Below are positions 5,078-64,000 of a stretch of 64,000 nucleotides of DNA, piece after piece. A program made the position numbers and the translations under genes. Positions within the stretch are counted from its first letter, which is position 1. Each line of letters opens with the position of its first letter. A model generated the notes under the pieces. That model had not been told where the DNA came from and did no database searches. It saw only the letters and a program-made list of their open reading frames with translations. The stretch comes from Curtobacterium aurantiacum (lineage in GTDB: Bacteria > Actinomycetota > Actinomycetes > Actinomycetales > Microbacteriaceae): assembly GCF_018598555.1 (NCBI RefSeq), contig NZ_JAHEWN010000005.1:124001-188000 (forward strand), read 5' to 3'.

Positions 5078-7714
5078 GTGTCCGTAACTGACACCCTTCG
5101 ACGCCGGCGCAACGGTGCGCCTCCGAGCAGGACCGGCGCTGGCTCGCTGCCGGCCTTGCGCTCCCGTGGCCTGCGTGTCGCAGCCTCTGCTGGCGTCCTC
5201 GCGTTGACGGTGTCGACGCTCGCCGCAACGTCGTTGCTCGCCGGCCCTGCTGCTCCGGCCCAGGCGGCACCGGGGAACCCGGGCACCCCGTCGGATCCGA
5301 CGACGGTGTACACGGAGGACTTCCAGAACGTCCCCGGCACGAGCCCGGTGCAGACGCTCACGGACTACACGGGCACGAGCGGACAGAAGTACACGGCGAA
5401 CGACGCGTGGCTGACCTACTGCAACGGTCTCGTCGCGTCGACGTCGCAGTCCCCGACCGACGCGGGCGCGGTCGCGGCATGCGGGAACGAGAGCAACGGG
5501 GCGAACGGCCAGGTGAACTGGAACCGCACCCAGCAGCTCTCCTACGCGCTCGGCCTCTACCGGGGCGGGACCCCCGCAGCCGGCAACAGCAACTACGCCG
5601 ACTCGGCCTACACGGCCAACAACCCGGGCGCCGGCCTGGTCGAGTTCGAGACGGCCACCAACATCCCGTTCGCGGCGAGCAACCGCTTCATCACCTTCAG
5701 CGCCGACGTCGCCGCGATCAACTGTGCCGTGTCCGCGCCCCAGCTGCAGTTCCAGCTCCTCAACGACGCAGGCGTGGCGACGAACGTCGGCACGCAGGTC
5801 AACGCGTGCACCTCGACCGACGTCGTGAACGTCCCCGCGGTCGGAGCGGTGCAGGCGCTGACGGCCAACGTGGGCACGACGAGTGCGAACAGCGCGCTCC
5901 TGTTCTCGGGGACCTCGATCGGTGTCCGGATGCTGAACAACAACGGCTCCGGTGCCGGGAACGATCACGCGATCGACAACATCCGGATCCTCGACGTCAC
6001 CCCGCAGCTGGACAAGCAGTTCAGCCCCGCCCGCGTCGAGACCGGCGGTACCTCGACGCTGACGTTCACCGTCACGAACACGAGCGAGCTCGGCTCGAAG
6101 GCCGGTTGGACGTTCACGGACGACCTGCCGGACGGCCTCACGCTGGCGAACTCGACGGTGGGCGGCACGTGTGACGCGGACACCGCGGCAACGGCTGGTG
6201 CGACGTCGGTCGCGATCACCGACGGCAACCTCGCTGCGGGGGAGACCTCCTGCACGATCACGGTGCAGGTCACTGCAGCTGCAGCCGGCAGCTACACCAA
6301 CGGCCCGGACAACATCACTCCGAACGGACTCGTCCCGCCGGCCGACACCACCGTCACCTTCACGGACCCGTCCTACACGGTCGCGAAGACCGCTGACGTC
6401 GCCTCGGCGCACCCCGGTGACACCGTCACCTACTCGGTCGTGGTGACCAACACCGGCGAGTGGGCGTACACCGCCGACGCGCCGGCTCCCTTCACGCAGG
6501 CATCGTTCACCGATGACCTGTCCGAGGTCCTCGACGACGCCACCTACGTCGACGACTCCGCAACGCAGGGCGCCGTCGTCGACGGGGACACCTTGTCCTG
6601 GGCCGGTGACCTGGGCGTCGGTGAGTCGAAGACCATCACGTACGCGGTCACGGTGAACAACCCCGACACGGGCGACGAGGTGCTCGAGAACACGGTCACC
6701 ACCCCGCCGAACACCGGCGGCACCTGCGCAGCCGACGGATCGTGCGGTACGAACACACCCGTGCAGTCGTACAGCGTGGCGAAGACCTCGGCAGCAGCGG
6801 GCATCGTCCACGCCGGCAGCACCGTGTCCTACACCGTCACCGTGACCAACACGGGCGTCGTGGACTACACGGACGCGGCACCTGCATCATTCACCGACGA
6901 CCTCTCCGAGGTCCTCGACGACGCCGCCTACAACGGCGACGCGTCCGAGGGTGCCACCGTGGACGGCGACACCCTGTCCTGGTCCGGCCCGCTGCAGGTC
7001 GGCGAATCGGTCGACATCACCTACTCGGTGACCGTCGGCACTCCGGATGCCGGTGACGGCTCGATCGAGAACGCGGTGACCGTCCCCACGGGCAACGGTG
7101 GCGGCTGCGCCACCGAGGGCGGGTGCCGGACGACGGATCTCGTCGGTGCGTTCACCGTCCAGAAGACGTCCGACAAGGCCGAGGTGGGCCCCGGCGGCGT
7201 GGTGCACTACGAGGTGACGGTGACGAACACCGGCAAGGTCGACTACACGACGACGGACCCGGCCTCGTTCACGGACGACCTGTCGAAGGTCACCGACGAC
7301 GCCACCTACAACCGCGACGCGTCCTCCGGCGCCACGGTGCGGGGCGACACCCTCTCGTGGGCAGGTGCGCTCGCGCAGGGCAAGAGCGTCACGGTGGCGT
7401 ACTCGTTCACGGTGAACAGCCCCGACACCGGTGACCGCGAGCTCACCAACGTCGTCGACGCCGGCGAAGGCGGATCCTGCGCGACCGCGGGCGGCTGCAC
7501 CACGAACACCACGGTGGACGTCCCGCCGACGCTCGTCACTCCGATCGGCGACCCGGCTGCCCCGGCCGGTCCTTCGGTGGCCACCGGTGGGACCGTCGTC
7601 TCCCCGGCTCCGGTGTGGCCGTGGATCGGCTCCGGCATCGTGGCACTGGCCGGCATGGTCACGCTCGGCGTGATGGTGCTCCGTCGTCGTCAGGACACGA
7701 CCGCCGGTGACTGA
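5078..7714 (+). CDS. Secreted DUF11-repeat surface protein with C-terminal membrane anchor
   Basis: An 878-residue predicted cell-surface protein. A long basic leader and hydrophobic segment end near residue 63 (AQA-A), consistent with a signal peptide. A lectin-like, GEVENT-free N-terminal domain covers residues 65-300. Four DUF11 repeats of about 125 residues follow, starting near residues 306, 430, 561 and 690; each carries a VTNTG motif and ends with a GGxCxxxGxC cysteine pair. A proline/glycine spacer leads to a membrane helix (about 847-867) and an RRR tail. The usual LPxTG or LAxTG signal is replaced by SVATG. The GTG start has AGGGGA upstream. The stop overlaps the sortase start, so the two are co-translated. 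Adhesion or wall-structure roles are inferred only from the architecture. Confidence 0.85.
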   Translation: MSVTDTLRRRRNGAPPSRTGAGSLPALRSRGLRVAASAGVLALTVSTLAATSLLAGPAAPAQAAPGNPGTPSDPTTVYTEDFQNVPGTSPVQTLTDYTGTSGQKYTANDAWLTYCNGLVASTSQSPTDAGAVAACGNESNGANGQVNWNRTQQLSYALGLYRGGTPAAGNSNYADSAYTANNPGAGLVEFETATNIPFAASNRFITFSADVAAINCAVSAPQLQFQLLNDAGVATNVGTQVNACTSTDVVNVPAVGAVQALTANVGTTSANSALLFSGTSIGVRMLNNNGSGAGNDHAIDNIRILDVTPQLDKQFSPARVETGGTSTLTFTVTNTSELGSKAGWTFTDDLPDGLTLANSTVGGTCDADTAATAGATSVAITDGNLAAGETSCTITVQVTAAAAGSYTNGPDNITPNGLVPPADTTVTFTDPSYTVAKTADVASAHPGDTVTYSVVVTNTGEWAYTADAPAPFTQASFTDDLSEVLDDATYVDDSATQGAVVDGDTLSWAGDLGVGESKTITYAVTVNNPDTGDEVLENTVTTPPNTGGTCAADGSCGTNTPVQSYSVAKTSAAAGIVHAGSTVSYTVTVTNTGVVDYTDAAPASFTDDLSEVLDDAAYNGDASEGATVDGDTLSWSGPLQVGESVDITYSVTVGTPDAGDGSIENAVTVPTGNGGGCATEGGCRTTDLVGAFTVQKTSDKAEVGPGGVVHYEVTVTNTGKVDYTTTDPASFTDDLSKVTDDATYNRDASSGATVRGDTLSWAGALAQGKSVTVAYSFTVNSPDTGDRELTNVVDAGEGGSCATAGGCTTNTTVDVPPTLVTPIGDPAAPAGPSVATGGTVVSPAPVWPWIGSGIVALAGMVTLGVMVLRRRQDTTAGD

Positions 7715-8339
7715 CACCGTCCAGGGTGGGCGGCGTCGACGGTGGGTGTTCCTCGTCGTCGGCGCCGCCACCGCGCTCGCCCTCACGGGCAGCATCGTCG
7801 GCTACGTCGCCACCCGGTCCGGGCCCGTCGACCTGCAGGGCAACCGGGTGCAGGCGGAAGACGTCCCAGCCGCGGCTGCCCCGGCGTCCGCGGTGCCGGA
7901 CGCCGGAGGACAGTTCGTCGTGAAGTCCGTCGGTCTCGACGTGCCCCTCGGTGCTCTGAACGCCGTCGACGGGACGGTTGAGCCTCCCGGGTTCACCTCC
8001 GCGTACAGGATCCGCAACGAAGGCGTCCCGACGAAGGCCGCGGCGAAGGGGACCGTGTTCGTGGTCATGCACTCACTCCGCAACGGCGGTGTCGCGCCCG
8101 GTAACGCCCTGATCGACGTCGAGCACCAGACGGCGAAGGTCGGCAGGGGGACGAAGATCCAGGTCGACGGGGTCACGTACGCCGTCACCGGGTCGCAGGC
8201 CATCGAGAAGGCCGCCCTGTCGAAGTCGTCCACGATCTGGGCCGACACCCCGAACCGACTCGTCATCATCACCTGCCTCCAACGACCGCAGGGTGGGCCG
8301 TCGGTCGACAACCTGGTCATCCAGGCCGTCAGGGCCTGA
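7707..8339 (+). CDS. Single-pass membrane sortase (class E/F-like)
   Basis: A 210-residue protein starting at a GTG that overlaps the DUF11 stop by 8 bp. A basic N-terminus and one signal-anchor helix (about residues 12-32) precede an extracellular sortase domain. The catalytic His is probably H122 in VVMHS and the Cys is C190 in the VIITC motif. The conserved Arg is not certain: R193 is close to the Cys, and the position normally occupied by Arg before DNLVI is SV. Sortases cleave sorting signals and attach proteins to the cell wall. The adjacent DUF11 protein is the obvious substrate, although its signal is degenerate. Confidence 0.82.
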   Translation: MTDTVQGGRRRRWVFLVVGAATALALTGSIVGYVATRSGPVDLQGNRVQAEDVPAAAAPASAVPDAGGQFVVKSVGLDVPLGALNAVDGTVEPPGFTSAYRIRNEGVPTKAAAKGTVFVVMHSLRNGGVAPGNALIDVEHQTAKVGRGTKIQVDGVTYAVTGSQAIEKAALSKSSTIWADTPNRLVIITCLQRPQGGPSVDNLVIQAVRA

Positions 8340-8834
8340 AGGACCCCAAGACCCTGCTCGCCGACCGGGGGGCGGCGGGGAGGGGCCGGGACGACACCTC
8401 CCGGCCGACAAGAAGGCGTGGGGCTGCCGTCCCCGAGCGGCAGTCCCACGACTTCGATCCGCTACCCTGCGCGACCGGGGGCCGGCGACCGGCGAGTCGC
8501 GCCGATGGGTCCCTTGACGCCCGGACCGATCCGGACGAGCATCGCTGCTGGCGACGCGTGGGGGCCCAGCGTCGCCTCGCACACGATGACGTGTGAAGTG
8601 AGCGCCGTCGTGTTGACCCGAATCCCCACGACGGCGCTCCCTGGCGTGCCCGTACCCTCGGTCACTCCAGGACATGCAGCGGGTGATGCCTCTGCTGCAT
8701 GGTGATCCGGGGAGTATCGCTCGCGTGCCTGGGGGTCTCGTCCGTGCAGACGGTTCGCGGCGCCCCCAAAACGGGGCCCCCACTCCGCGGCTGTCGAGCC
8801 CCGCCCGCGATCACCACGCGGACGGGACCGCAGC
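8340..8834. other. 495-bp non-coding region between convergent genes
   Basis: Between the sortase and the convergent SGNH hydrolase no open frame has a ribosome site or recognisable protein. The region holds GC-rich low-complexity sequence, a small hairpin at 8580-8595 (CACAC/GTGTG) and the long terminator hairpin at 8600-8639. It could hide an untranslated RNA, but nothing in the sequence shows one. Confidence 0.5.
8600..8639. terminator. 13-bp perfect-stem hairpin, bidirectional terminator candidate
   Basis: GAGCGCCGTCGTG is followed by a 14-nt loop and its exact complement CACGACGGCGCTC. It lies between convergent genes, 260 bp after the sortase stop and 195 bp after the SGNH stop. There is no T-run, as is common in high-GC actinobacteria. 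Confidence 0.6.
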
Positions 8835-10106
8835 TCAGGCCGGCGTCGACGTCAGGTAGGCGTAGAGGATCGCCGCGATGACGTCGTAGCCCGTGTCGTT
8901 CGGGTGGATCCCGTCGTACATGTACGTGTTGCCCGCCGTGCCGGTCTGCCCGAAGTACGGCGGTACGTAGGCACCGAGATCGAAGAAGCCGATCGCGACG
9001 CCCGGGTTCGCGGACCGGAACGTGGTCACCGCCTGCTGCTGAGCGGTGCGGTACTTCGCCCACTCGGTGGTCGACGCCTTTCCCAGCTGGAACGGCATGA
9101 TCACGAGCAGCGCCGAACCCGGGCTCCGGTCGTGCACGAGGTCCAGGTAGTTGACCGTCTGCTGCGTCAGGACCGCGGGGGTGACCACGCCGTAGTCGTT
9201 CGTCCCCCACATCGACGTGATCAGGTCGGGGGAGAAGCGACGGAGCGCGTCCGCCCAGGTGTCGTTGCCGTTGGCGGCCGAGGACGCGAGGGAGAAGCCC
9301 TCGGTCCGCGAGGTCGACTGCGACGCCTCGAGGACGTGGAACCCGCCGCCCTCGTCGCCGTCGAAGAGCTGCCAGCCCTCGACGAAGGGCTCGCCGCTCT
9401 GCCACGTCACCGTCACGGTGCGGGTCGCGGAGGCCGACCGCGGGCTGGTCCAGGTCTGCTCACCGCTGGACACCGCGGGCAGGGTGACCCTGGTGCCGTC
9501 GATGGTGACCGAGATCGCGTCACGGTTGCTCGTCGCCCGCCACGACAGCACGAACGACGTGAAGGCCTGCGTGAACGAGGCGGACCGGACGCTGGTGCCG
9601 GTCAGTGCGACGGCGCGTCGGCCGAGCCCGGACTTCGTGCTCCGGGCACCGGCGTAGGTGGCGGAGCGGAGGTCGATCGCGGCGCCGTTCGCGCCCGTGT
9701 ACGAGACGTAGGTCACCGTGGTCGGAGGCTTGTCGACCGTGGCGTACTGCGAGCGAGCGGGGACGTAGTCGAGTCCGCCGGGCGCCTGCCCGGCACCGTT
9801 GCGGAGTCGTGCCCGCACCCGTGCCGGGTACCCCTTCTGCGGCGAGGCAGCGCCGAACGCCTCGGTGATGGAGTCGCCCGCCGTGACGATGGTCGCGGTG
9901 CCGGCGGCGACCTTGCGGAAGAACCCGGCGAGCGGGTCGTTGGCCGGGTACGTCAGCCCGGACGGGATGAACGGCTTGGTGGCTGCCGCGGACGCCGGTG
10001 ACGCCGCTGCGCCGGCCAGGGCCGAGCCACCGATCGTGACGGCGGCGCCCTGCAGCAGACCCCGCCTCGAGATCCCTCGGCCGCTCTTCGAACTGTGATC
10101 CGTCAT
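8835..10106 (-). CDS. Tat-exported SGNH/GDSL-family esterase or hydrolase
   Basis: A 423-residue exported protein. The N-terminus has a twin-arginine signal (SRRGLLQGA, residues 13-21) and a hydrophobic stretch ending ASPASA near residue 40. The GDSI block places the nucleophile at Ser79. The second catalytic block is DGIHPND with Asp398 and His401, and MWGTNDYG supplies the block III Asn. A beta-rich insert of about 130 residues separates the halves of the SGNH core. The family cleaves ester bonds in lipids or acylated polysaccharides; the substrate here is unknown. The ATG at 10106 is preceded by CTGGGGGAAAC. Confidence 0.88.
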   Translation of the reverse strand: MTDHSSKSGRGISRRGLLQGAAVTIGGSALAGAAASPASAAATKPFIPSGLTYPANDPLAGFFRKVAAGTATIVTAGDSITEAFGAASPQKGYPARVRARLRNGAGQAPGGLDYVPARSQYATVDKPPTTVTYVSYTGANGAAIDLRSATYAGARSTKSGLGRRAVALTGTSVRSASFTQAFTSFVLSWRATSNRDAISVTIDGTRVTLPAVSSGEQTWTSPRSASATRTVTVTWQSGEPFVEGWQLFDGDEGGGFHVLEASQSTSRTEGFSLASSAANGNDTWADALRRFSPDLITSMWGTNDYGVVTPAVLTQQTVNYLDLVHDRSPGSALLVIMPFQLGKASTTEWAKYRTAQQQAVTTFRSANPGVAIGFFDLGAYVPPYFGQTGTAGNTYMYDGIHPNDTGYDVIAAILYAYLTSTPA

Positions 10107-52649: not shown

Positions 52650-52656
52650 TCTGATC

Positions 52657-52728
52657 CGCAAGACACCGGTGTTCGCGCGTTGAACCCCCGCATCCCGCGG
52701 TGCGGAGCGCGAACACCGGTGTCTTGCG
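52657..52728. repeat. 72-bp palindromic repeat element, copy 1
   Basis: Two exactly complementary 22-bp arms (52657-52678 and 52707-52728) enclose a 28-nt loop. Each arm contains the self-complementary core ACACCGGTGT. It sits 7 bp after the rocD stop and 14 bp before the convergent epimerase stop, so it can act as a bidirectional terminator. A homologous element of identical length lies at 55157. Confidence 0.85.
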
Positions 52729-52742
52729 TGCGGCGCCGCGAC

Positions 52743-53735
52743 TCACACCGCCCAGCGCGCCGCCAGCTCGTCCATCAGGGCATCGAGCCGCTCGTCGATG
52801 ACCTGCTCCTCGGGGTGCGCCTCGTACCAGGCGATGACCTCGCGCACACCCTGCCGGTAGGTCGTGCGCGGCCGGTACCACGGCACGAGCGACCGGACCT
52901 TGCTGTTGTCGAACACCGAGCTGTTCGCCTTGTCGCCGAGCAGTGCCGCGCCCCACTCCGCGTCCGCGGCGGCGATGGCATCCGCCGGCACGTGCACGAT
53001 GCGCAGGTCGTCGACTCCGGCCGCAGCAGCGATCTCGTGGGCGATGGCGTTCCAAGTCGGCGCCTCGTCGCTCGTGATCGTGAAGGGTTCGCCGATCGCC
53101 TCGGCCCGGTCGAGCAGCCCGGTGAACCCGACCGCGAAGTCACGGCTGTGCGTCAGGGTCCACAGCGAGGTGCCGTCGCCCGTGATGATGACCGGCTTCC
53201 CGGCGCGCATCCGGGCGACCGCGGTCCAGCCGCCGGTCAGCGGCAGCTTGGTCTCGTCGTAGGTGTGCGACGGCCGCACGATCGTCACCGGGAAGTCCTG
53301 CTCCCGGTACGCGTCCATCAGCAGTTCCTCGCACGCGATCTTGTCGCGCGAGTACTGCCAGTACGGGTTCTTCAGCGGCGTCGACTCCGTGATCGGCAGG
53401 TGCGTCGCCGGCGTCTGGTAGGCCGAGGCCGAGCTGATGAACACGTACTGCCGCGTCCGCCCCGCGAAGAAGTCGACGTCGGCCTGCACCTGGTCCGGCG
53501 TGAAGGCGATCCAGTTCACGACCACGTCGAAGCGCTGGTCGCCGAGTGCGTCCGCCAGTGCGCTGCGGTCCGAAACGTCGGCCTGGAGGCGCGTCACACC
53601 CTCCGGGATCGGCCTGCCCCCGGTGGTCCCCCGGTTGAGCACGGTCACGTCGAACCCCTGCTCGACGGCTTCCCGGACGCAGGCGGCGCTGATGACGCCG
53701 CTCCCGCCGATGAACAACACGCTCGCTCCGGTCAT
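52743..53735 (-). CDS. NAD-dependent epimerase/dehydratase-family protein
   Basis: A 330-residue extended short-chain dehydrogenase. The N-terminal LFIGGSGVISAACVREAVEQGFDVTVLNRG is the dinucleotide site. VFISSASAYQTP and YWQYSRDKIACEELL give the Ser and a YxxxK-like active site, followed by VTIVRPSHTYD. It resembles sugar-nucleotide epimerase-like or RNA-binding CSP41-type proteins. The ATG at 53735 has GAGGGAG upstream; the frame is open to 53945 and beyond without homology. Confidence 0.86.
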   Translation of the reverse strand: MTGASVLFIGGSGVISAACVREAVEQGFDVTVLNRGTTGGRPIPEGVTRLQADVSDRSALADALGDQRFDVVVNWIAFTPDQVQADVDFFAGRTRQYVFISSASAYQTPATHLPITESTPLKNPYWQYSRDKIACEELLMDAYREQDFPVTIVRPSHTYDETKLPLTGGWTAVARMRAGKPVIITGDGTSLWTLTHSRDFAVGFTGLLDRAEAIGEPFTITSDEAPTWNAIAHEIAAAAGVDDLRIVHVPADAIAAADAEWGAALLGDKANSSVFDNSKVRSLVPWYRPRTTYRQGVREVIAWYEAHPEEQVIDERLDALMDELAARWAV

Positions 53736-55150: not shown

Positions 55151-55156
55151 CCGGTC

Positions 55157-55228
55157 CGCAGAACACCGGTGTTCACCCGTTGAACACGCGCGTGCCACGG
55201 TTCGACGCGCGAACACCGGTGTTTTGCG
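55157..55228. repeat. 72-bp palindromic repeat element, copy 2
   Basis: The arms 55157-55174 and 55211-55228 pair over 18 bp with one G-T pair. Each holds the 14-bp palindrome GAACACCGGTGTTC or most of it. Same length, outer arms and central GTTGAAC as the element at 52657, but with a diverged loop. It starts 7 bp after the aldo/keto reductase stop, the same distance as copy 1 after rocD. Confidence 0.85.
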
Positions 55229-55257
55229 ACCGACGTCACACCGGCCAGACAACGGAA

Positions 55258-55285
55258 AAGGCCCCCTGCCGAAGCAGGGGGCCTT
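55258..55285 (+). terminator. Rho-independent terminator hairpin
   Basis: AAGGCCCCCTGC, a CGAA tetraloop and GCAGGGGGCCTT form a perfect 12-bp stem 107 bp after the aldo/keto reductase stop. It marks the end of typical host sequence before the AT-richer region. Confidence 0.9.
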
Positions 55286-55740
55286 CACCGGTGGCTGGAC
55301 ACGGCATCGATCCGTGGACCTTTCGATTTTCAGTTGAAGTTCGAGTGAATTTCGAAAAGTGATTAGTCCTCGTTGGCCGTCACGCCGGGCGAGGCGCACG
55401 CGACTGGTGGTGGTTGGTAGCAGTCGGACCACATGACACCCCGGCACAACTCCGGCACCGAACTGGGCCCGCGGCGGCGCGACCGGCAATATGTCAGAGG
55501 GCAGGTCTGCCTGCGACGGGATGGCGTCGGCTGCAGCGGTAATCTTCTTCGGTGCCCCAACGACCAGAGCTACGCCGATGATCGCATGAGTAGACAACGT
55601 GTCTTTGCGCAGGTGTCGTCGGAGAGCGGTAGGAACCGCGGGGTCCCGGCACCAGCAGCGGCCACGAACGACTTCAGGCGCAGCGCGCCTCCCGGCGGGG
55701 TATCGCTTGGTCAGAACGCACGTTGCCAAGGAGTTTAGTA
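55286..55740. other. 455-bp junction region before the AT-richer island
   Basis: Host-like GC-rich sequence gives way here to lower-GC sequence. At 55318-55366 is an AT-rich stretch with the imperfect inverted pair CTTTCGATTTT/AATTTCGAAAAG, a candidate attachment or boundary site. No tRNA gene was recognised. The open frames on both strands have no ribosome site or homology. AAGGAG at 55728 belongs to the methylase gene. Confidence 0.4.
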
Positions 55741-57381
55741 ATGCCCGAATTGATGTGGGTCGGCAAGAGTAAGGTGCTTACGCACCACCTCGATGTCCCG
55801 TTTCGCCTTCTCGATAGACAGTACTCGTTTGATGAAGACGGTCTGCGGCAGGCCGACAACGGTTCCGCAAACATGATCATCCATGGTGACAATCTCGAAG
55901 CCCTGAAGGCTCTCTTGCCGCGGTACGAGGGTAGGGTAGACGTCGTCTACATAGATCCTCCTTACAACACTGGGGAGGAGCGTTGGATATACAACGACAA
56001 CGTCAATGATCCAGTGATCCGCCAGTGGCTTGGAGAAGTGGTGGGTAGGGAAGGTGAAGACCTATCCCGCCATGATAAGTGGCTCAGCATGATGTACCCG
56101 AGGCTACGTCTTTTGCATCGACTCTTGTCGGCGGACGGCCTATTCGCTGTGTCGATCGGCGACGCGGAGCTTCATAATCTCGGGGCCATGCTCGATGAGA
56201 TCTTCGGAGCGCGGAACAGACTGGCCACCGCCCCCGTAAGGTCCGAGCCAAGCGGCGGTAAGGATAAGTCGGCGCTACGTACAGGCCACGAATACGTCCT
56301 TTTCTATAGCAAGGGCGATCAGAGTCGGCTCGTGAAAGAGGAGAAATCCGCCGGACCTCTAACGCTGAAAGACTCAGCCGGCATGTATCGCAAGGGTAGG
56401 GAATTGCGCAAGTGGGGCGCCACCTCCGATCGGAAGGACCGGCCCAACCTCTGGTTTCCGATCACCGACCCGGATGGTCAACCGGCACTTCCTTTCAAGA
56501 ATGACGGAACCGAGGGGTACTGGCGGTGGGGTACCACTCACAGCGCGATGGCCGAGATTCTGAAAGACCCTTCTCGAGCACACTGGGAACGGGCGCCGTT
56601 CGACGCTGGGGTCAGTGTGAATGGTGCGACCTCACGGAACGTGCCCTATGAGAAAGTGCGAGACGTCAAGAAGTCGTTTGGGTGGAACACTTGGCTTGAC
56701 GGTTATGGCACCAATGCGGACGCAACTGCCGTAATCAAAGCCATCTTCGGAAGCAAGGAATTCGATACTCCAAAGCCCTTGTCCCTTATCGAATGGATCA
56801 TATCGCTGCATGATCGAGATGACGCTCTGGTCCTAGACTCCTTTGCTGGTTCCGGGACGACGGGGCATGCAACTCTCAAGCTGAACGCAACAGATGGCGG
56901 CACTCGCAAATTCATCCTGGTGGAGCTTGGAGAATACGCGGAGTCTGTTACTGCCGAGAGAGTCAGGCGTGTCATCTCTGGAAAGGTGGCGAAGCCCGAT
57001 TCGCTTCAGAAGACGGGTGGGGATTTTTCCTACTATGAGCTTGGGGAGCCCCTCTTCAACGGAGACGAACTCAATCCGTCCGTTCCTGTTGAAAGACTTC
57101 GTGACTACATCTGGTACACGGAGACGGCAGGCGTCAGTCCGCGCGAACAGGTCGAAGGTTTTCCGCACTACCTGGGGACCTTCGGTGGGACTGCCTATCA
57201 TTTACACTACGATGCGAACCAGGCCACCGTCCTCAATCACGAGTTCCTGGCCCCGTTTACCGGACAAGTCATTGCGGACACCATTGTAATCTACGCCGAT
57301 TCGTGCATACTGAGTAAAGCTGAACTGAGCCGAATGGGCTTGGTGTTCAAGAAAATTCCGCGGGACATATCGCGGTTCTAG
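55741..57381 (+). CDS. Type III-like site-specific DNA (adenine) methyltransferase, Mod subunit
   Basis: A 546-residue DNA methyltransferase. Motif IV DPPYNT is at residues 72-77 and the AdoMet-binding motif FAGSG is at about 368-372, so catalytic precedes cofactor motif, the beta order typical of type III Mod proteins. Between them lies the target recognition region. AAGGAG 8 bp before the ATG at 55741 decides the start. It is 9 bp upstream of the res gene, the usual mod-res order. Codon use is visibly AT-richer than the host genes. It would modify adenine and protect against the partner nuclease. Confidence 0.9.
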   Translation: MPELMWVGKSKVLTHHLDVPFRLLDRQYSFDEDGLRQADNGSANMIIHGDNLEALKALLPRYEGRVDVVYIDPPYNTGEERWIYNDNVNDPVIRQWLGEVVGREGEDLSRHDKWLSMMYPRLRLLHRLLSADGLFAVSIGDAELHNLGAMLDEIFGARNRLATAPVRSEPSGGKDKSALRTGHEYVLFYSKGDQSRLVKEEKSAGPLTLKDSAGMYRKGRELRKWGATSDRKDRPNLWFPITDPDGQPALPFKNDGTEGYWRWGTTHSAMAEILKDPSRAHWERAPFDAGVSVNGATSRNVPYEKVRDVKKSFGWNTWLDGYGTNADATAVIKAIFGSKEFDTPKPLSLIEWIISLHDRDDALVLDSFAGSGTTGHATLKLNATDGGTRKFILVELGEYAESVTAERVRRVISGKVAKPDSLQKTGGDFSYYELGEPLFNGDELNPSVPVERLRDYIWYTETAGVSPREQVEGFPHYLGTFGGTAYHLHYDANQATVLNHEFLAPFTGQVIADTIVIYADSCILSKAELSRMGLVFKKIPRDISRF

Positions 57382-57390
57382 GGGGAGTCG

Positions 57391-60069
57391 ATGGAGCTCA
57401 AGAAGTACCAGAAGCGCGTGGTGACGGACTTGGGAGATTACGTTCGGCATCTTTCGGAGCAGGACTCGCTTAGCAAGGCGTTCGAAAGCTACTGGGCGGA
57501 GCGTCAGATTCAGGTTGGCGTTCCCGGCATGAAGGCGTACCAGAACATCGTAGACCAGGTCCCAACGGTTTGCTATAAGGTGCCCACCGGGGGCGGGAAG
57601 ACTTTCCTGGCCTGCGCATCGATGAAGACCATATTTGGTGCAATGCCTTCTGTGAAGACAAAAGCGGTAGTTTGGCTCGTCCCGTCCGAAGCAATTCTCA
57701 GTCAAACGCTGAGCGCCCTCAAGAATCCATCGCATCCGTATCGGAAAAAACTGAACACCGATTTCGGGGCACGCGTTGAGGTGTACTCAAAGGATGAGTT
57801 GTTGGCGGGCCAAAACTTCTCTCCTGCGAACGTGGCGGATCAGGTCTCAGTGATGGTTCTATCCTATGACTCCTTCCGTGTGTCCAATAAGGATGGGCGT
57901 AAGGCGTATCAGGCCAACGGAGCGTTGCAAGGGTTCCAGACCATGCTCGGAGAACCTAGTGCTCCGATTGCAAACGCGGACGAGACGGCTCTGTTTCAGG
58001 TGATCAATCAGTTGAACCCAGTGGTCGTTGTCGACGAGTCGCATCATGCACGGACCGTGCTGTCAATCGAAATGCTTCAAAACTTCAACCCGGCGTTCAT
58101 TCTAGACCTGACAGCGACGCCAGGGCCCGAAGCGAACGTAATTTCGTACGTGGATGCGCTCGAGTTGAAAGCCGAGCACATGGTGAAGCTGCCGGTTGTT
58201 GTGTACAACCGCGCTTCCCAAGAGGACGTCATCGCAGATGCGATCGATCTGCGACGTTCTCTTGAGCAAGCGGCAATCAGGGAGGAGGAAGCGGGCGGTG
58301 CATATTTACGACCAATCGTCCTTTTTCAGGCCCAGCCGAAGCGGGATGAAGACGCGACGTCATTCGACAAACTGAAAAGCCGCCTGATCGATGCTGGCAT
58401 TTCGGCAGACCACATTGCGATCAAAACTTCGTCTATCAACGAACTCCGCAACATCGATCTTGCGAGCCCGGACTGCGACATACGTTACGTCATTACCGTC
58501 AACGCGTTGAAGGAGGGTTGGGACTGTCCGTCGGCCTACATCCTGGCTTCGCTCGCTAACCGCACGAGCAAGACAGAAGTGGAGCAAGTCCTGGGGCGGG
58601 TGCTGCGACAGCCCAATGCTCGCCGCCACGCAGAGGGGCTCCTCAATATGTCGTTCGTCATGACGTCCTCGATTGATTTTCAGGCGACCGTCGACCAGGT
58701 GGTTGTCGGGCTCAATCGAGCGGGGTTCACTGCACGGGATTATCGTGTCGTGGATCAGGGAGAGTACGCGGCGCACGGTATCGCGGAGGTCGATGAGGCG
58801 TCGGAGCTCGATCTTGCGGCACTAGACGCTGAGGTCGCTTCCGGGAAGTCCGCTGAGCCCCTGGAAAGTGAGCCGGCTGACCTTTCAGAGTTCGATCCGT
58901 TGCTCGTCGCTGAGGAGTTGAAGAGTCGGGAACAAGGGTCTGACGCGCCGTCGGAGAAGGTTGAGTCCCTGATATCGATTGCTGTAGAGAAGGCTCGAGA
59001 CTACGACTCCAAGGTGGAAGAGGCTGAGGTTGCGAGTGATGATGGTCGTGTCCCTGCAGATTTAGGAGACGTTGTGGAGCAGTACGCCATGAGTCCCGTG
59101 TTCGAAGAAGATGCTAGTTCTCTGCGCCTTCCTCAATTCGTAGTTCGAGTCCCTGAGTCCGTTTTTGCCGCAGATGCTGAGTTTGGTTCTGTCTATCTAG
59201 AGCGCGAGTCTCTGACCGAAAATTTCAGTCTCGAAGGGCGGGACTATTCGATCGACCTTGAGCACGCCTCCGAAGAAATGGTTGCGGTTGATGTTCGTGG
59301 ATCTAATCGCGACCAGCCGAAGGCGTTCCACATGAACTCCGTTCAGCAGCAGGAGATCCGGAAGTGGTTGGACTCACTCACTCCGGAGGCGCGAGTCGAT
59401 CAATGTGCAGAGATCGTCATGGCACGGCTTGATAGTTATGATTCGATCAGCAGTCAGGCGCTTCGGAAGTACGTGAAGCGCGTTGTTGAGAATCTGGATG
59501 GCCAGCAGCTGGTTGTTTTGGAGTCGTCTCCCCTAGCAGTCGCGTTAAAGATCAGGCGGAAGATTGATCAGTTTCTTAATTCCTATCGGGCGGAAGTTTT
59601 CGATCGATGGATTGACTCGGGTCGCATCGAGACGAAGCCTTTGTATAAACTGCCCCTGGCCATTTCCCCCATCGACGCGACGGCGACAGTAGGTGGTTCG
59701 CTTTACGAAGCCGAGGGTGCGATGAACAAAGACGAACGCGACCTGATCATGCAGATTGCCGGTTTAGACTCGGTTGAATGGTGGCACCGTGTAATCGAGC
59801 GTGCAGCTGGTTCATTCCGACTTAACGGCGCAATCACGCATTATCCCGATTTCATCGTGAAGATGAGGAGTGGGAAAGTAGTCCTAGTCGAGTTCAAGGG
59901 TGAAATGCTCAAGAATGATGACTCGCGACTGAAGATCGAGTTGGGTAAGAAGTGGCAGGCGGCGGCTGGCGGAAATTACCGCTACTACATGACGTTCAAA
60001 GACGGGGTCAGTCCGCTCTCCGGCGCTCTTTCGGTTCCGGACCTTTTAGGGCGGCTGGAGCAGCTGTAG
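57391..60069 (+). CDS. Type III-like restriction endonuclease, Res subunit (helicase-nuclease)
   Basis: An 892-residue protein. SF2 helicase motifs: Walker A PTGGGKT at 65-71, DESHH at 215-219, DLTATPGP, and motif VI-like EQVLGRVLRQP. A C-terminal PD-(D/E)xK nuclease is visible: YPDF with D820, then VEFKG with E834 and K836. This is the architecture of type III Res subunits, which translocate on DNA and cut when two unmethylated sites are met. It is directly after mod. All key residues are present, so the system looks functional. Confidence 0.9.
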   Translation: MELKKYQKRVVTDLGDYVRHLSEQDSLSKAFESYWAERQIQVGVPGMKAYQNIVDQVPTVCYKVPTGGGKTFLACASMKTIFGAMPSVKTKAVVWLVPSEAILSQTLSALKNPSHPYRKKLNTDFGARVEVYSKDELLAGQNFSPANVADQVSVMVLSYDSFRVSNKDGRKAYQANGALQGFQTMLGEPSAPIANADETALFQVINQLNPVVVVDESHHARTVLSIEMLQNFNPAFILDLTATPGPEANVISYVDALELKAEHMVKLPVVVYNRASQEDVIADAIDLRRSLEQAAIREEEAGGAYLRPIVLFQAQPKRDEDATSFDKLKSRLIDAGISADHIAIKTSSINELRNIDLASPDCDIRYVITVNALKEGWDCPSAYILASLANRTSKTEVEQVLGRVLRQPNARRHAEGLLNMSFVMTSSIDFQATVDQVVVGLNRAGFTARDYRVVDQGEYAAHGIAEVDEASELDLAALDAEVASGKSAEPLESEPADLSEFDPLLVAEELKSREQGSDAPSEKVESLISIAVEKARDYDSKVEEAEVASDDGRVPADLGDVVEQYAMSPVFEEDASSLRLPQFVVRVPESVFAADAEFGSVYLERESLTENFSLEGRDYSIDLEHASEEMVAVDVRGSNRDQPKAFHMNSVQQQEIRKWLDSLTPEARVDQCAEIVMARLDSYDSISSQALRKYVKRVVENLDGQQLVVLESSPLAVALKIRRKIDQFLNSYRAEVFDRWIDSGRIETKPLYKLPLAISPIDATATVGGSLYEAEGAMNKDERDLIMQIAGLDSVEWWHRVIERAAGSFRLNGAITHYPDFIVKMRSGKVVLVEFKGEMLKNDDSRLKIELGKKWQAAAGGNYRYYMTFKDGVSPLSGALSVPDLLGRLEQL

Positions 60070-60100
60070 GCCGGTAGCTGGTCAGTCTGTTGGCAGTTCG

Positions 60101-60180
60101 TGGGGTCCGGTGGCGCCGAGGAGCGCCCGGACCGCAGCGAAGCGAGGACCGGACGCACCGGAGCGCGGCACCGGACCCCA
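60101..60180. terminator. 12-bp inverted repeat with long repeat-rich loop between convergent genes
   Basis: TGGGGTCCGGTG (60101-60112) and CACCGGACCCCA (60169-60180) are exact complements. The 56-nt loop contains several further CGGACCG/CCGGACG copies. It lies 31 bp after the res stop and 44 bp before the convergent gene's stop. A bidirectional terminator is likely; an element-specific site is also possible. Confidence 0.55.
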
Positions 60181-60854: not shown

Positions 60855-61253
60855 ATGGCGATCCAGTCAGCAATCCCGGTGAGCTTCGATGCGTACTTCC
60901 CGAAGGGCGCGTTCATGGTGGGTGAGGTCGAACCGGTCGTGAAGTGGTCTGATGACGGCCAGCGTCAGGGACAGGACCTCGACAAGAACTCCGGTCAGCC
61001 GATGTGGCAGGTGCGCGTGATCGACGCTGATCCTGACGCGCGCAAGGGCCAAAACGAGGTCACGGTCAAGATCATCAGCATCAGCGAGCCGGTTGCCCCG
61101 CCGGAGATCCAAGGCCTCCCGTTCCGGCCGGTCGTCTTCGATGGTCTGTCGGTCACCCCGTACGTGAAGGAGAACGGCGGTCGACCACGCGTCGCGTACT
61201 CGCTCCGGGCTCGCGAGATGAAGGCAGCCGCGAAGCCACGGGGTGGTGAGTGA
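60855..61253 (+). CDS. Pra-like plasmid replication/integration/excision activator
   Basis: A 132-residue protein. The start MAIQSAIPVSFDAYFPKGAFMVGEVEPV and the middle MWQVRVIDADPDARKGQNEVTVKI, then LPFRPVVFDGLSVTPYV and AYSLRAREMKAA, follow the pattern of actinobacterial Pra-type activators of pSAM2-like elements. These switch on replication, excision and transfer. GAGAGGAGC precedes the ATG. It begins the AICE core operon and overlaps the translocase gene by TGATG. Confidence 0.82.
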   Translation: MAIQSAIPVSFDAYFPKGAFMVGEVEPVVKWSDDGQRQGQDLDKNSGQPMWQVRVIDADPDARKGQNEVTVKIISISEPVAPPEIQGLPFRPVVFDGLSVTPYVKENGGRPRVAYSLRAREMKAAAKPRGGE

Positions 61254-62656
61254 TGAGTTGGTCGGTTCGTAAGGAGGTCCGCTACTGGGCTGACGCGTTC
61301 GAGGGGTTCGCCCGACGCTTCCGGCGGGTGCTGATCGGACTGATGATCCTCACCCTCGTGGATCTCTTGACCACCTGGTTGCCACTTGTGTGGTGGCTCA
61401 ACGGCTTCGTGGCATTGATCTTCGTGCTTCGCCGTCTGCGGGTGTGGGGCAACATCGACGAAGCCCTCCACCGAGCGCAGCAGCGCTCGATCTCCCGGCA
61501 CATCGGGGCCGCCTGGCCAGCTCTTGCGCAGACGCTCCGGTTCGAGGCGCATGGTCCGAGTGGATCGCGCATCGCGGCCGGTGTCGGATCACCGAGCTGG
61601 GACGCAGACGTATGTCTTGTACCGCTGTACCTCCCGAGCGGTCTCACTTCTGGGGACGTCGGAGCTCACCCGGACCGAATCGCGGCAGCATTCGGGGCGC
61701 GTCGCGCCACCTTGTCCGGGACCCGGATCGATCAGCTCGAACTTCGCCTGTACTACGCCGACCCTCTTGCCGAACCGTTCGTACTTGCTCCAAGCGATGA
61801 CTGGGACGGACGAGCGGTCACGATGGGCCGGACTGAAGAGGGCGACGATTGGAGGCTCCGTCTCGGCCCACACACGCTGGTTGCTGGCGCCTCGGGAAGC
61901 GGCAAAGCGTCGATCGTCTGGGCGCTCCTCTTGGGGCTCGCCGGCGCAGTCCGATCCGGGATGGTCGAAGTGTGGGGCGTCGACCTCAAGGGCGGCATGG
62001 AGCTTGGGATGGGTAGGCCTCTCCTGACTCGCTTCGCGAACGACTCGGTGCACGCGGTGACCATGCTCGAGGAAGCCGTCGCTCAGATGCAGGCACGGGC
62101 TCGCGACCTCGCCGGGACGACTCGGCAGCACGAGGCTTCCATTGAGGCTCCTCTCGTGATCGTCCTGATCGACGAACTCGCTGCTCTCACGGCGTACGAA
62201 TCAGACCGGGACCTGCAGCGCCGGGCTAACGCCGGCATCGCAACGCTGGCGTCACAAGGGCGTGCTGTCGGCTTCGTGGTGATCGCGTGCCTGCAGGATC
62301 CAAGCAAGGAGACGCTGCCCGCGCGGGGGCTCTTCACCCAGACGATCGGGCTTCGTCTCCGCGACCGGACCGAGACGTCGATGGTGCTCGGCGACGGCTC
62401 TGTCGCTGCTGGTGCGCTCTGCCACGAGATCCCGATCGGCGCGCCCGGCACCGCCTACGTCCTGTCCGACGAGCTTGCGACACCGCAGCGGGTGCGGGCT
62501 GGGTACGCGGACGATGCCCTGATCACGCACACGGCACGAGCCTTCGCAGCGCCGCGCTTCAAGCCGGTGGTCGTACCTGAGACACAAAGTGCACGTGAGC
62601 CCGCCCGTCCGCGACGTCGGACGCGGAGCGCTGCTCAATCGAAGGAGGAGTCATGA
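61253..62656 (+). CDS. FtsK/SpoIIIE-domain DNA translocase (TraSA/TraB-like)
   Basis: A 467-residue protein. Two N-terminal helices (about residues 30-60) anchor it in the membrane. The ATPase domain has Walker A GASGSGKAS with Lys218, the VWGVDLKGGMELGMG block and the Walker B VIVLIDELAALT, then FVVIACLQDPSKETLP. Such proteins move double-stranded plasmid DNA between mycelia or cells in actinobacterial conjugation. The residue after the P-loop Lys is Ala rather than Ser/Thr, a known variation in this group. It is coupled to neighbours by overlaps. Confidence 0.9.
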   Translation: MSWSVRKEVRYWADAFEGFARRFRRVLIGLMILTLVDLLTTWLPLVWWLNGFVALIFVLRRLRVWGNIDEALHRAQQRSISRHIGAAWPALAQTLRFEAHGPSGSRIAAGVGSPSWDADVCLVPLYLPSGLTSGDVGAHPDRIAAAFGARRATLSGTRIDQLELRLYYADPLAEPFVLAPSDDWDGRAVTMGRTEEGDDWRLRLGPHTLVAGASGSGKASIVWALLLGLAGAVRSGMVEVWGVDLKGGMELGMGRPLLTRFANDSVHAVTMLEEAVAQMQARARDLAGTTRQHEASIEAPLVIVLIDELAALTAYESDRDLQRRANAGIATLASQGRAVGFVVIACLQDPSKETLPARGLFTQTIGLRLRDRTETSMVLGDGSVAAGALCHEIPIGAPGTAYVLSDELATPQRVRAGYADDALITHTARAFAAPRFKPVVVPETQSAREPARPRRRTRSAAQSKEES

Positions 62657-63060
62657 AGAACATCGCACGATCCGCACTGGTCATCGTCGTCGCTGGGGTG
62701 CTCATCGCCGGCGGCGCGATCCTCGGTCACTTCACCGCAGCGGAACACGCTTCAGCCGCGGCCGAGGCAAGATCCTCGATGTGCAACCTGCGGATCTCGT
62801 GGGACACGACGAACGGTGTAGAGCACGCGATCTACGTCGCGCCAGATCTTTCAGACCGTTCACTCGTCCAGCGGTACGGCCACATCGCGAACCAGTCGTG
62901 CACTGACGCGCAGCTCACCGACTGGATCAATCAACGACGCAAGGAGCACGCCGCGGTCGACGTCTGCCGTCCAGTGTTGCGCACAGACGATGTGACTGGG
63001 TACGTGTACCCGATCGGATGCGCGGTCCCCGAACTGGTGGTGTCTGATGGGCCTCGCTGA
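62653..63060 (+). CDS. Small exported or membrane-anchored protein of the transfer operon
   Basis: A 135-residue protein with one N-terminal helix (ALVIVVAGVLIAGGAILGHFTA) and an external domain holding four cysteines (C44, C83, C104, C123). No domain is recognised. It overlaps the translocase stop (ATG at 62653) and the rep start, so it is co-translated with both. In pSAM2-like elements small Spd proteins of this type help plasmid spread, but that assignment is positional only. Confidence 0.7.
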   Translation: MKNIARSALVIVVAGVLIAGGAILGHFTAAEHASAAAEARSSMCNLRISWDTTNGVEHAIYVAPDLSDRSLVQRYGHIANQSCTDAQLTDWINQRRKEHAAVDVCRPVLRTDDVTGYVYPIGCAVPELVVSDGPR

Positions 63061-64000
63061 GTCAGTCGCGCGCCGTCTCCGTAGTCCGGAGTTCGACCGT
63101 TGGATGCGGGGTGCCGCCCGAGTGGGCTTCTGCACGAACCCGGTTCGGCTGGTCGGAGCATCCACGACCTTCGGATCTGAGACGGGGGAGGAGCGCGCCA
63201 GGTTCTCGTCTGCCGACCAGCCGGACCACGTCCTCTTCACTCGCTGCGGCAACCGCCGCGCGCAACGCTGCGCCTCGTGCAGCCACGAGTACAAGGGCGA
63301 CACCTGGCACATGATCATGGCTGGCGCAGCCGGCGGTATGAAGGGCGTTCCCAACTCAGTCGCGGCCCACCCAATGGTGTTCCTCACACTGACCGCTCCT
63401 TCGTTCGGAGCCGTACACGGCGCGGCCTGCGCTCGGGCCAAACCCTGCAGACACGGTCGTCGACCGGAATGCGGGACCGGACACGCAGGAGGCGGTCCCG
63501 AGCTCGGCGATGCGATCTGCCCAGACTGCTACGACTACGAGGGCCACGTCGTGTGGCAGTACTTCGCGTCCGAGCTGTGGAGGCGATTCACCATCCAACT
63601 TCGTAGGGAGCTCGCCAGAGTCCTTGGCATGAGTCAGCGAGAGGCTTCCACTCTCGTTCGACCACAGTTCGCGAAAGTGGCGGAGTTCCAGAAGCGGGGC
63701 GCCGTCCACTTCCACGCGATCGTCCGACTCGACGGTGTCGACACCGATGATGCTTTCCCAGCGCCTGATGATCGCATGACGACCGCTCACCTGACGCAAG
63801 CGATCCGCCAGGCTGCGCGTGCGGTGCGGTATCAACCGCCCAGCCTTCCCTCTGGACGCTTCCCGAACGTGCTCCGTTGAGGTCGGCAGATCGACGTGAC
63901 GCCGATCGTTCGAAGCGAGGGTCTCGATGGACGGCTGTCGGATCGTGCGGTCGCCGCCTACATCGCCAAGTACGCGACCAAGGCGACGGAGGACTTGGAT
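63047..64000 (+). pseudogene. RepSA-like HUH replication initiator, interrupted by an in-frame TGA (and cut by the window end)
   Basis: The reading frame starts with ATG at 63047. It has a zinc-like cluster (CGNRRAQRCASC near residue 67; CPDCYDYEG near 163) and the HUH motif HFH at 221-223 in GAVHFHAIVRLDG. At codon 278 (63878-63880) TGA stands where relatives have TGG: VLR-stop-GRQIDVTPI. The same frame then continues without interruption to the edge with IVRSEGLDGRLSDRAVAAYIAKYATKATEDLD. Y305 and Y309 in YIAKYATK would be the catalytic tyrosine motif. A protein ending at 277 would lack it, so the gene is a pseudogene unless the TGA is read through. Confidence 0.82.

Follow-up and report, generated by a model that had tools for sequence, protein, structure and literature searches.

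Does a single in-frame stop codon in the replication initiator gene of an integrated element mean that the element has lost its capacity to replicate, or that the stop is bypassed, or that it was never there? The question is raised by the rep gene of a pSAM2-type AICE in a Curtobacterium genome, which lies at the end of the analysed stretch of 64,000 nucleotides (hereafter, the window). The original prediction offered three options, namely a fresh nonsense mutation that would immobilise the element, a site of readthrough, or a sequencing error. The window ends inside rep, and the contig (G000:C31; 196,434 bases) runs on past it; positions in L002, the stretch of this contig that begins at window position 59000, equal the window position minus 58999.

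Structure and gene content of the element

The element is a pSAM2-type AICE of ~13.7 kb situated in the 3' end of a tRNA-Phe gene. Self-comparison identified a 62-nt direct repeat, identical at 56 of 62 positions, at 55277–55338 and at L002 9935–9996 (equivalent to window positions 68934–68995), with a 44-nt identical core that begins exactly at the tRNA-Phe 3' end. When the right junction was searched in a same-genus sample, each of the 13 genomes that lack this rep gave a best match beginning at query positions 820–850 (repeat start, 836); in the two carriers of this rep of that sample (G004, G005), the match reached into the element. The outer limits of the repeats (55277 and L002 9996), taken together with this comparison to empty sites, give the size stated above. 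The features outside rep are as follows; open reading frames that contained stops and were read in another frame or from the opposite strand were taken as non-genes.

55277–55338, no strand: attL, the left attachment repeat (self-comparison, tRNA-Phe edge, empty sites)
55723–57381, + strand: type III DNA methyltransferase, cargo (Pfam N6_N4_Mtase, 3.3e-32; PADLOC MTase_III, 5.4e-156)
57391–60069, + strand: type III restriction enzyme subunit, cargo (Pfam ResIII, 1.8e-16; PADLOC REase_III, 2.5e-86)
61250–62656, + strand: FtsK/TraB-type transfer protein (tra), open (Pfam FtsK_SpoIIIE, PF01580, 1.1e-12)
62653–63060, + strand: small conserved gene upstream of rep, open in three of three comparisons (no Pfam match)
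L002 5274–6737: integrase (int), no stop in three comparisons (Phage_integrase, 9.2e-26)

Between rep and int, a frame in the position of xis returned no Pfam match and is a putative Xis by position and appearance. A phosphoesterase-like gene near the right end, whose profile match falls under the cut-off, is open in comparison with three relatives. No drug-resistance gene was identified among the element genes scanned. The genes follow the order tra-rep-int and are flanked by att sites, with insertion at the 3' end of a tRNA gene, as in pSAM2-type AICEs (layout and Rep motifs described in PMC3218068). Of the features that define an AICE, the element has this tRNA-linked integration with direct att repeats, an integrase, and an FtsK/SpoIIIE-type Tra; its replication initiator gene is of the RepSA type but is interrupted by a TGA.

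Closely related AICEs occur in C. luteum NS184, Curtobacterium sp. UNCCL20, and a third genome (G005), with ~91–95% identical DNA over the conserved core; att copies lie at corresponding places in the UNCCL20 and G005 elements. All three differ from the present copy in having an open rep and other DNA in the left and right cargo slots. Against these relatives, tra (468 of 468 positions aligned without a stop in each of the three), the small gene, int, and the phosphoesterase-like gene are open, whereas rep is interrupted in all three comparisons. The two slots that differ between relatives span window positions 55339–60116 and L002 ~7120–9140. Here the left slot carries the type III restriction-modification pair, the methyltransferase gene of which matched no DNA in the related loci that were compared, and the right slot encodes a protein of 470 residues that matched neither a Pfam nor a PADLOC model. 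A separate direct repeat of ~100 bases (76% identical) was observed at window positions 52655–52755 and 55155–55248, the second copy just left of attL; it appears to hold inverted repeats, and related copies are present in L011.

Within the genus, a relative of this rep was identified in 5 of 66 Curtobacterium genomes, the present one counted; three are open at full length, one is the copy described here, and one (G070) matches over 167 residues. Across 398 genomes of the host family, 31 contained a match at an E-value of 0.001, many of them weak.

The rep reading frame and its in-frame TGA

Direct reading of the sequence places a TGA in frame in repSA at 63878–63880 on the + strand, at codon 278. 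The frame runs from an ATG at 63047 through 277 codons to the TGA, and then through a further 174 open codons to a stop at L002 5404–5406, beyond the window.

63047–63880, + strand: repSA 5' part, codons 1–277 and the TGA, with the HUH motif (reading of the open frame, Pfam, alignment)
63878–63880, + strand: in-frame TGA, codon 278 (sequence, alignment of relatives)
63881–64000, + strand: repSA 3' part inside the window, with YIAKY (Y305, Y309), extending to L002 5406 (Pfam, alignment)
63896–63898, + strand: GTG at codon 284, the first potential in-frame start after the TGA, with GAGG upstream; a candidate reinitiation site

The Pfam family RepSA (PF20199; 438 model positions) matches the 5' part with an E-value of 4.8e-96 (positions 2–265) and, within the window, the 39 whole codons beyond the TGA with an E-value of 2.2e-9 (positions 276–311). 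These matches are in register on both sides, so homology runs on in the same frame, as the original prediction had claimed. The family cut-off of 34 bits is exceeded by the 5' part alone (323 bits) and by the sequence read across the stop (468.5 bits); the stricter NCBIfam equivalog NF041486 gives the 5' part 260.8 bits, under its cut-off of 700. The predicted division of the catalytic motifs was likewise correct: the HUH motif VHFHA (H221, H223) precedes the stop and YIAKY (Y305, Y309) follows it, and H221, H223, Y305, K308, and Y309 are invariant in an alignment of 33 sequences. The gene thus resembles pSAM2 RepSA and other RepSA(SAM2)-type AICE initiators in its homology in both halves, its HUH motif, and its two-tyrosine YxxxY motif; unlike pSAM2 RepSA, it contains an in-frame TGA, and its 5' open frame ends ahead of the tyrosine motif. 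HUH and YxxxY do not share one open reading frame here, which makes this an interrupted member of the RepSA family. A profile search of the whole genome returned this single RepSA and no second copy that could act in trans.

A structure predicted for the C. luteum protein, which is the closest intact relative, has a mean pLDDT of 85 and places residue 278 just before a strand (residues 282–288) and the helix that bears the tyrosines (residues 299–309). A product ending at residue 277 would therefore lack both the tyrosines and the neighbouring strand. No relative among solved structures was identified by sequence; Foldseek returned weak matches to solved HUH Rep domains (best E-value 0.26 and above), which were not used as evidence. 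As PMC3218068 describes pSAM2-type RepSA, the protein nicks the origin, with its catalytic tyrosine in motif 3; the truncated product encoded here would presumably be unable to nick the double-stranded origin.

The same region of the gene bears on the idea of a split initiator, in which translation would restart at GTG 63896 to yield a C-terminal tyrosine piece that cooperates with the N-terminal HUH piece. The GTG lies in frame 16 bases past the TGA (63880 to 63896) with its upstream GAGG, and the C-terminal frame is open for 169 codons. However, the three intact close relatives use this GTG simply to encode Val, the break would cut one strand off from the remainder of the catalytic domain in the predicted fold, and no other locus covering residue 278 has a stop there. 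Reinitiation at this GTG is possible but unsupported, and a functional two-piece initiator seems highly improbable.

Codon 278 in related genes

The three nearest elements have TGG at codon 278; their Rep is 95–97% identical and their frame remains open through this codon. In a wider, profile-based count, an aligned stretch was obtained for 159 other loci, of which 144 (128 distinct aligned sequences) extend over codon 278; 90 encode Trp, 47 Phe, 4 Leu, and 1 Arg, 2 are ambiguous, and none has a stop. An earlier, smaller count, in which 72 of 92 loci covered the codon, similarly gave 53 Trp, 14 Phe, 2 Leu, 1 Arg, and 2 gapped, again with no stop. The expectation of a TGG is thus supported by the closest relatives, but Trp is not universal at this residue in the family. 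The genome searches covered one genome per species; within the set examined, the TGA is private to this genome. The two comparisons originally proposed, alignment with RepSA homologs and a search for the same TGA in related genomes, both find no stop at this codon in the relatives that cover it. A stop conserved at the same codon, as would characterize programmed readthrough, was found in 0 of the 144 loci.

Four of 102 distinct near-complete RepSA matches contain an in-frame stop: the copy in the window (TGA), G184 (TGA), G490 (TAA), and G1058 (TAG). These 102 matches were counted by hand from two 396-genome samples (38 and 67 matches, with G000, G184, and G605 shared), where near-complete denotes at least 400 of 438 model positions, shorter matches were left out, and at most four candidates were scored per genome. 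In G184 (L071, 1498–1560), the TGA is at residue 19 and an ATG comes immediately after it, at a point where relatives have Trp-Met; this ATG may simply be the true start of the gene. The G490 TAA is at aligned residue 31, and G1058 encodes Phe at codon 278, with its TAG outside the aligned stretch.

Several further interruptions were observed in other relatives. Stops are present at aligned residue 417 in L054, 449 in L052, and 208 in L061, and L062, L067, and L068 have several stops, with matches in broken frames. In L216 (G551, ~1761–1767) and L217 (G940, ~1616), a RepSA-like gene is split into two frames shortly ahead of the HUH motif; the split is at a G run in L216 and at a C run in L217, and these splits could be frameshift errors, real lesions, or slippage sites.

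Among plasmid records, 20 contained a relative, all below 60% identity, and viral contigs contained three (37–45% identity); the exact 30-base stretch around the TGA was absent from the viral contigs searched. No comparable RepSA stop came up in our literature search, which does not show that none has been described.

Decoding of the TGA

Readthrough had been put forward as one origin of the interrupted frame, and dedicated machinery for it was sought in the form of a UCA-anticodon tRNA, a tRNA-Sec, or an altered tRNA-Trp; none was found. A whole-genome search returned 46 tRNAs, none with a UCA anticodon. The nine matches to the tRNA-Sec model all fell under the cut-off and all at the places of ordinary tRNAs. 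According to PMC13092985, UGA can be read when the anticodon stem of the Trp-tRNA is shortened; the tRNA-Trp of this genome, inspected by eye, has a 5-bp anticodon stem and G24, and was rejected as such a candidate. The position alone, with Trp in the closest relatives, speaks for decoding of the TGA as Trp or selenocysteine; against this, the other conserved element genes compared contain no internal stop. Given the tRNA set, such decoding is very unlikely, and overall we assign it almost no probability. A dedicated or altered tRNA of the kind that would accompany programmed readthrough is thus not among the tRNAs of this genome.

A leaky stop would instead rely on the ordinary tRNA-Trp (CCA), which would misread UGA at a low rate; trace amounts of full-length RepSA would suffice for the element, and the stop would act as a brake on replication. 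Several observations are consistent with this: constraint after the stop is at the level of sense codons (see below), the other conserved element genes compared are open, and relatives have both Phe and Trp at residue 278, so substitution there is tolerated. There is also a precedent within the element class, as PMC3218068 reports that the Frankia AICE Faln1739 excises despite an in-frame TAA in int, which its authors credit to ribosomes passing the stop. The present element resembles Faln1739 in having a single in-frame stop in an AICE core gene with no suppressor tRNA found; it differs in that the stop is a TGA in rep and is known from sequence alone, whereas in Faln1739 it is a TAA in int and excision was measured. 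However, the sense codon in the three close relatives, the lack of a TGA in all 144 other covering loci, and the lack of a special tRNA make leaky decoding unlikely. A more specific form, in which a leaky stop throttles RepSA such that excision and replication are rare and the restriction-modification cargo is kept at little cost to the host, is a shade less likely again. If true, throttled RepSA would be the replication counterpart of the Frankia AICE, and database elements with "dead" core genes may still be mobile.

Substitution pattern and age of the stop

Changes unique to one of four sequences (this copy and its three closest relatives) were scored as private. Upstream of the stop, this rep has 4 nonsynonymous and 7 synonymous private changes; downstream, the counts are 2 and 7. 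Under neutrality, nonsynonymous changes would make up a share of 0.74, against which the downstream ratio of 2:7 gives a P of 0.002. Purifying selection is thus still visible downstream of the stop, with no relaxation seen. Most of the branch would then have passed under selection, and the stop probably arose late and is probably young. The constraint fits either a recent stop or some full-length or reinitiated product; these data do not separate the two. With 21 private changes and no selection, about 0.74 stops are expected, so one stop needs no special cause. The change from TGG to TGA is a single transition; in the rep of the closest relative, 44 C:G-to-T:A changes would create a stop, and this is one of them.

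The substitution pattern also bears on the possibility that the TGA is a sequencing or assembly error and the real rep is intact. The genome is a draft in 35 contigs, and the three relatives have TGG. On the other hand, the TGA differs from the codon of the relatives by a substitution and no long homopolymer adjoins it, the 20 other private substitutions on the same branch (one of them in the next codon) resemble real divergence, and the genome is rated 99.99% complete with 0.24% contamination. An error accordingly appears improbable.

Consequences for replication and mobility

We conclude with good confidence that the stop is a recent nonsense mutation in the RepSA of a pSAM2-type AICE, and that it probably abolishes Rep-driven replication. 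Of the three options initially raised, a fresh nonsense mutation is best supported; the stop is private, one transition away from the codon of its relatives, and accompanied by no downstream relaxation. The truncated Rep, without its catalytic tyrosines, would not nick the double-stranded origin, and the excised form would lose rolling-circle replication.

The further suggestion that the element is immobilised goes too far: replication is likely lost, but int and tra are open, so excision and low-level transfer may persist. As described in PMC3218068, AICE excision depends on the integrase and in most cases Xis, and in transfer an FtsK-like Tra moves unprocessed double-stranded DNA; the Frankia AICE excises even with a stop in int. 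Some indirect effect is conceivable, since repSA, xis, and int form one operon in pSAM2 (PMC3218068, PMC8584621); if the same holds here, the untranslated 3' half of rep may lower xis and int expression by polarity. Mobility may be reduced rather than abolished, and the element would be inherited mainly along with the chromosome.

A second element in the genus has a rep broken in a different way. In G070 (L155, G070:C1 6351–8400), the gene is cut at approximately residue 166 by a stretch with the transposase genes rve and HTH_Tnp_1, a pair that we take to be IS3-like; after the insertion, the rep-to-int stretch resumes only for its final 181 bases, and most of int is lost. This second, independent loss suggests that the loss of Rep in integrated copies recurs.

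The gene described here is an ordinary case, most likely a recently arisen pseudogene allele of a known initiator within an established class of element. It nonetheless offers a clean example of an AICE that loses its replication step while its integration, transfer, and defence cargo genes stay open, and element callers that need intact Rep open reading frames could miss or misjudge such copies.
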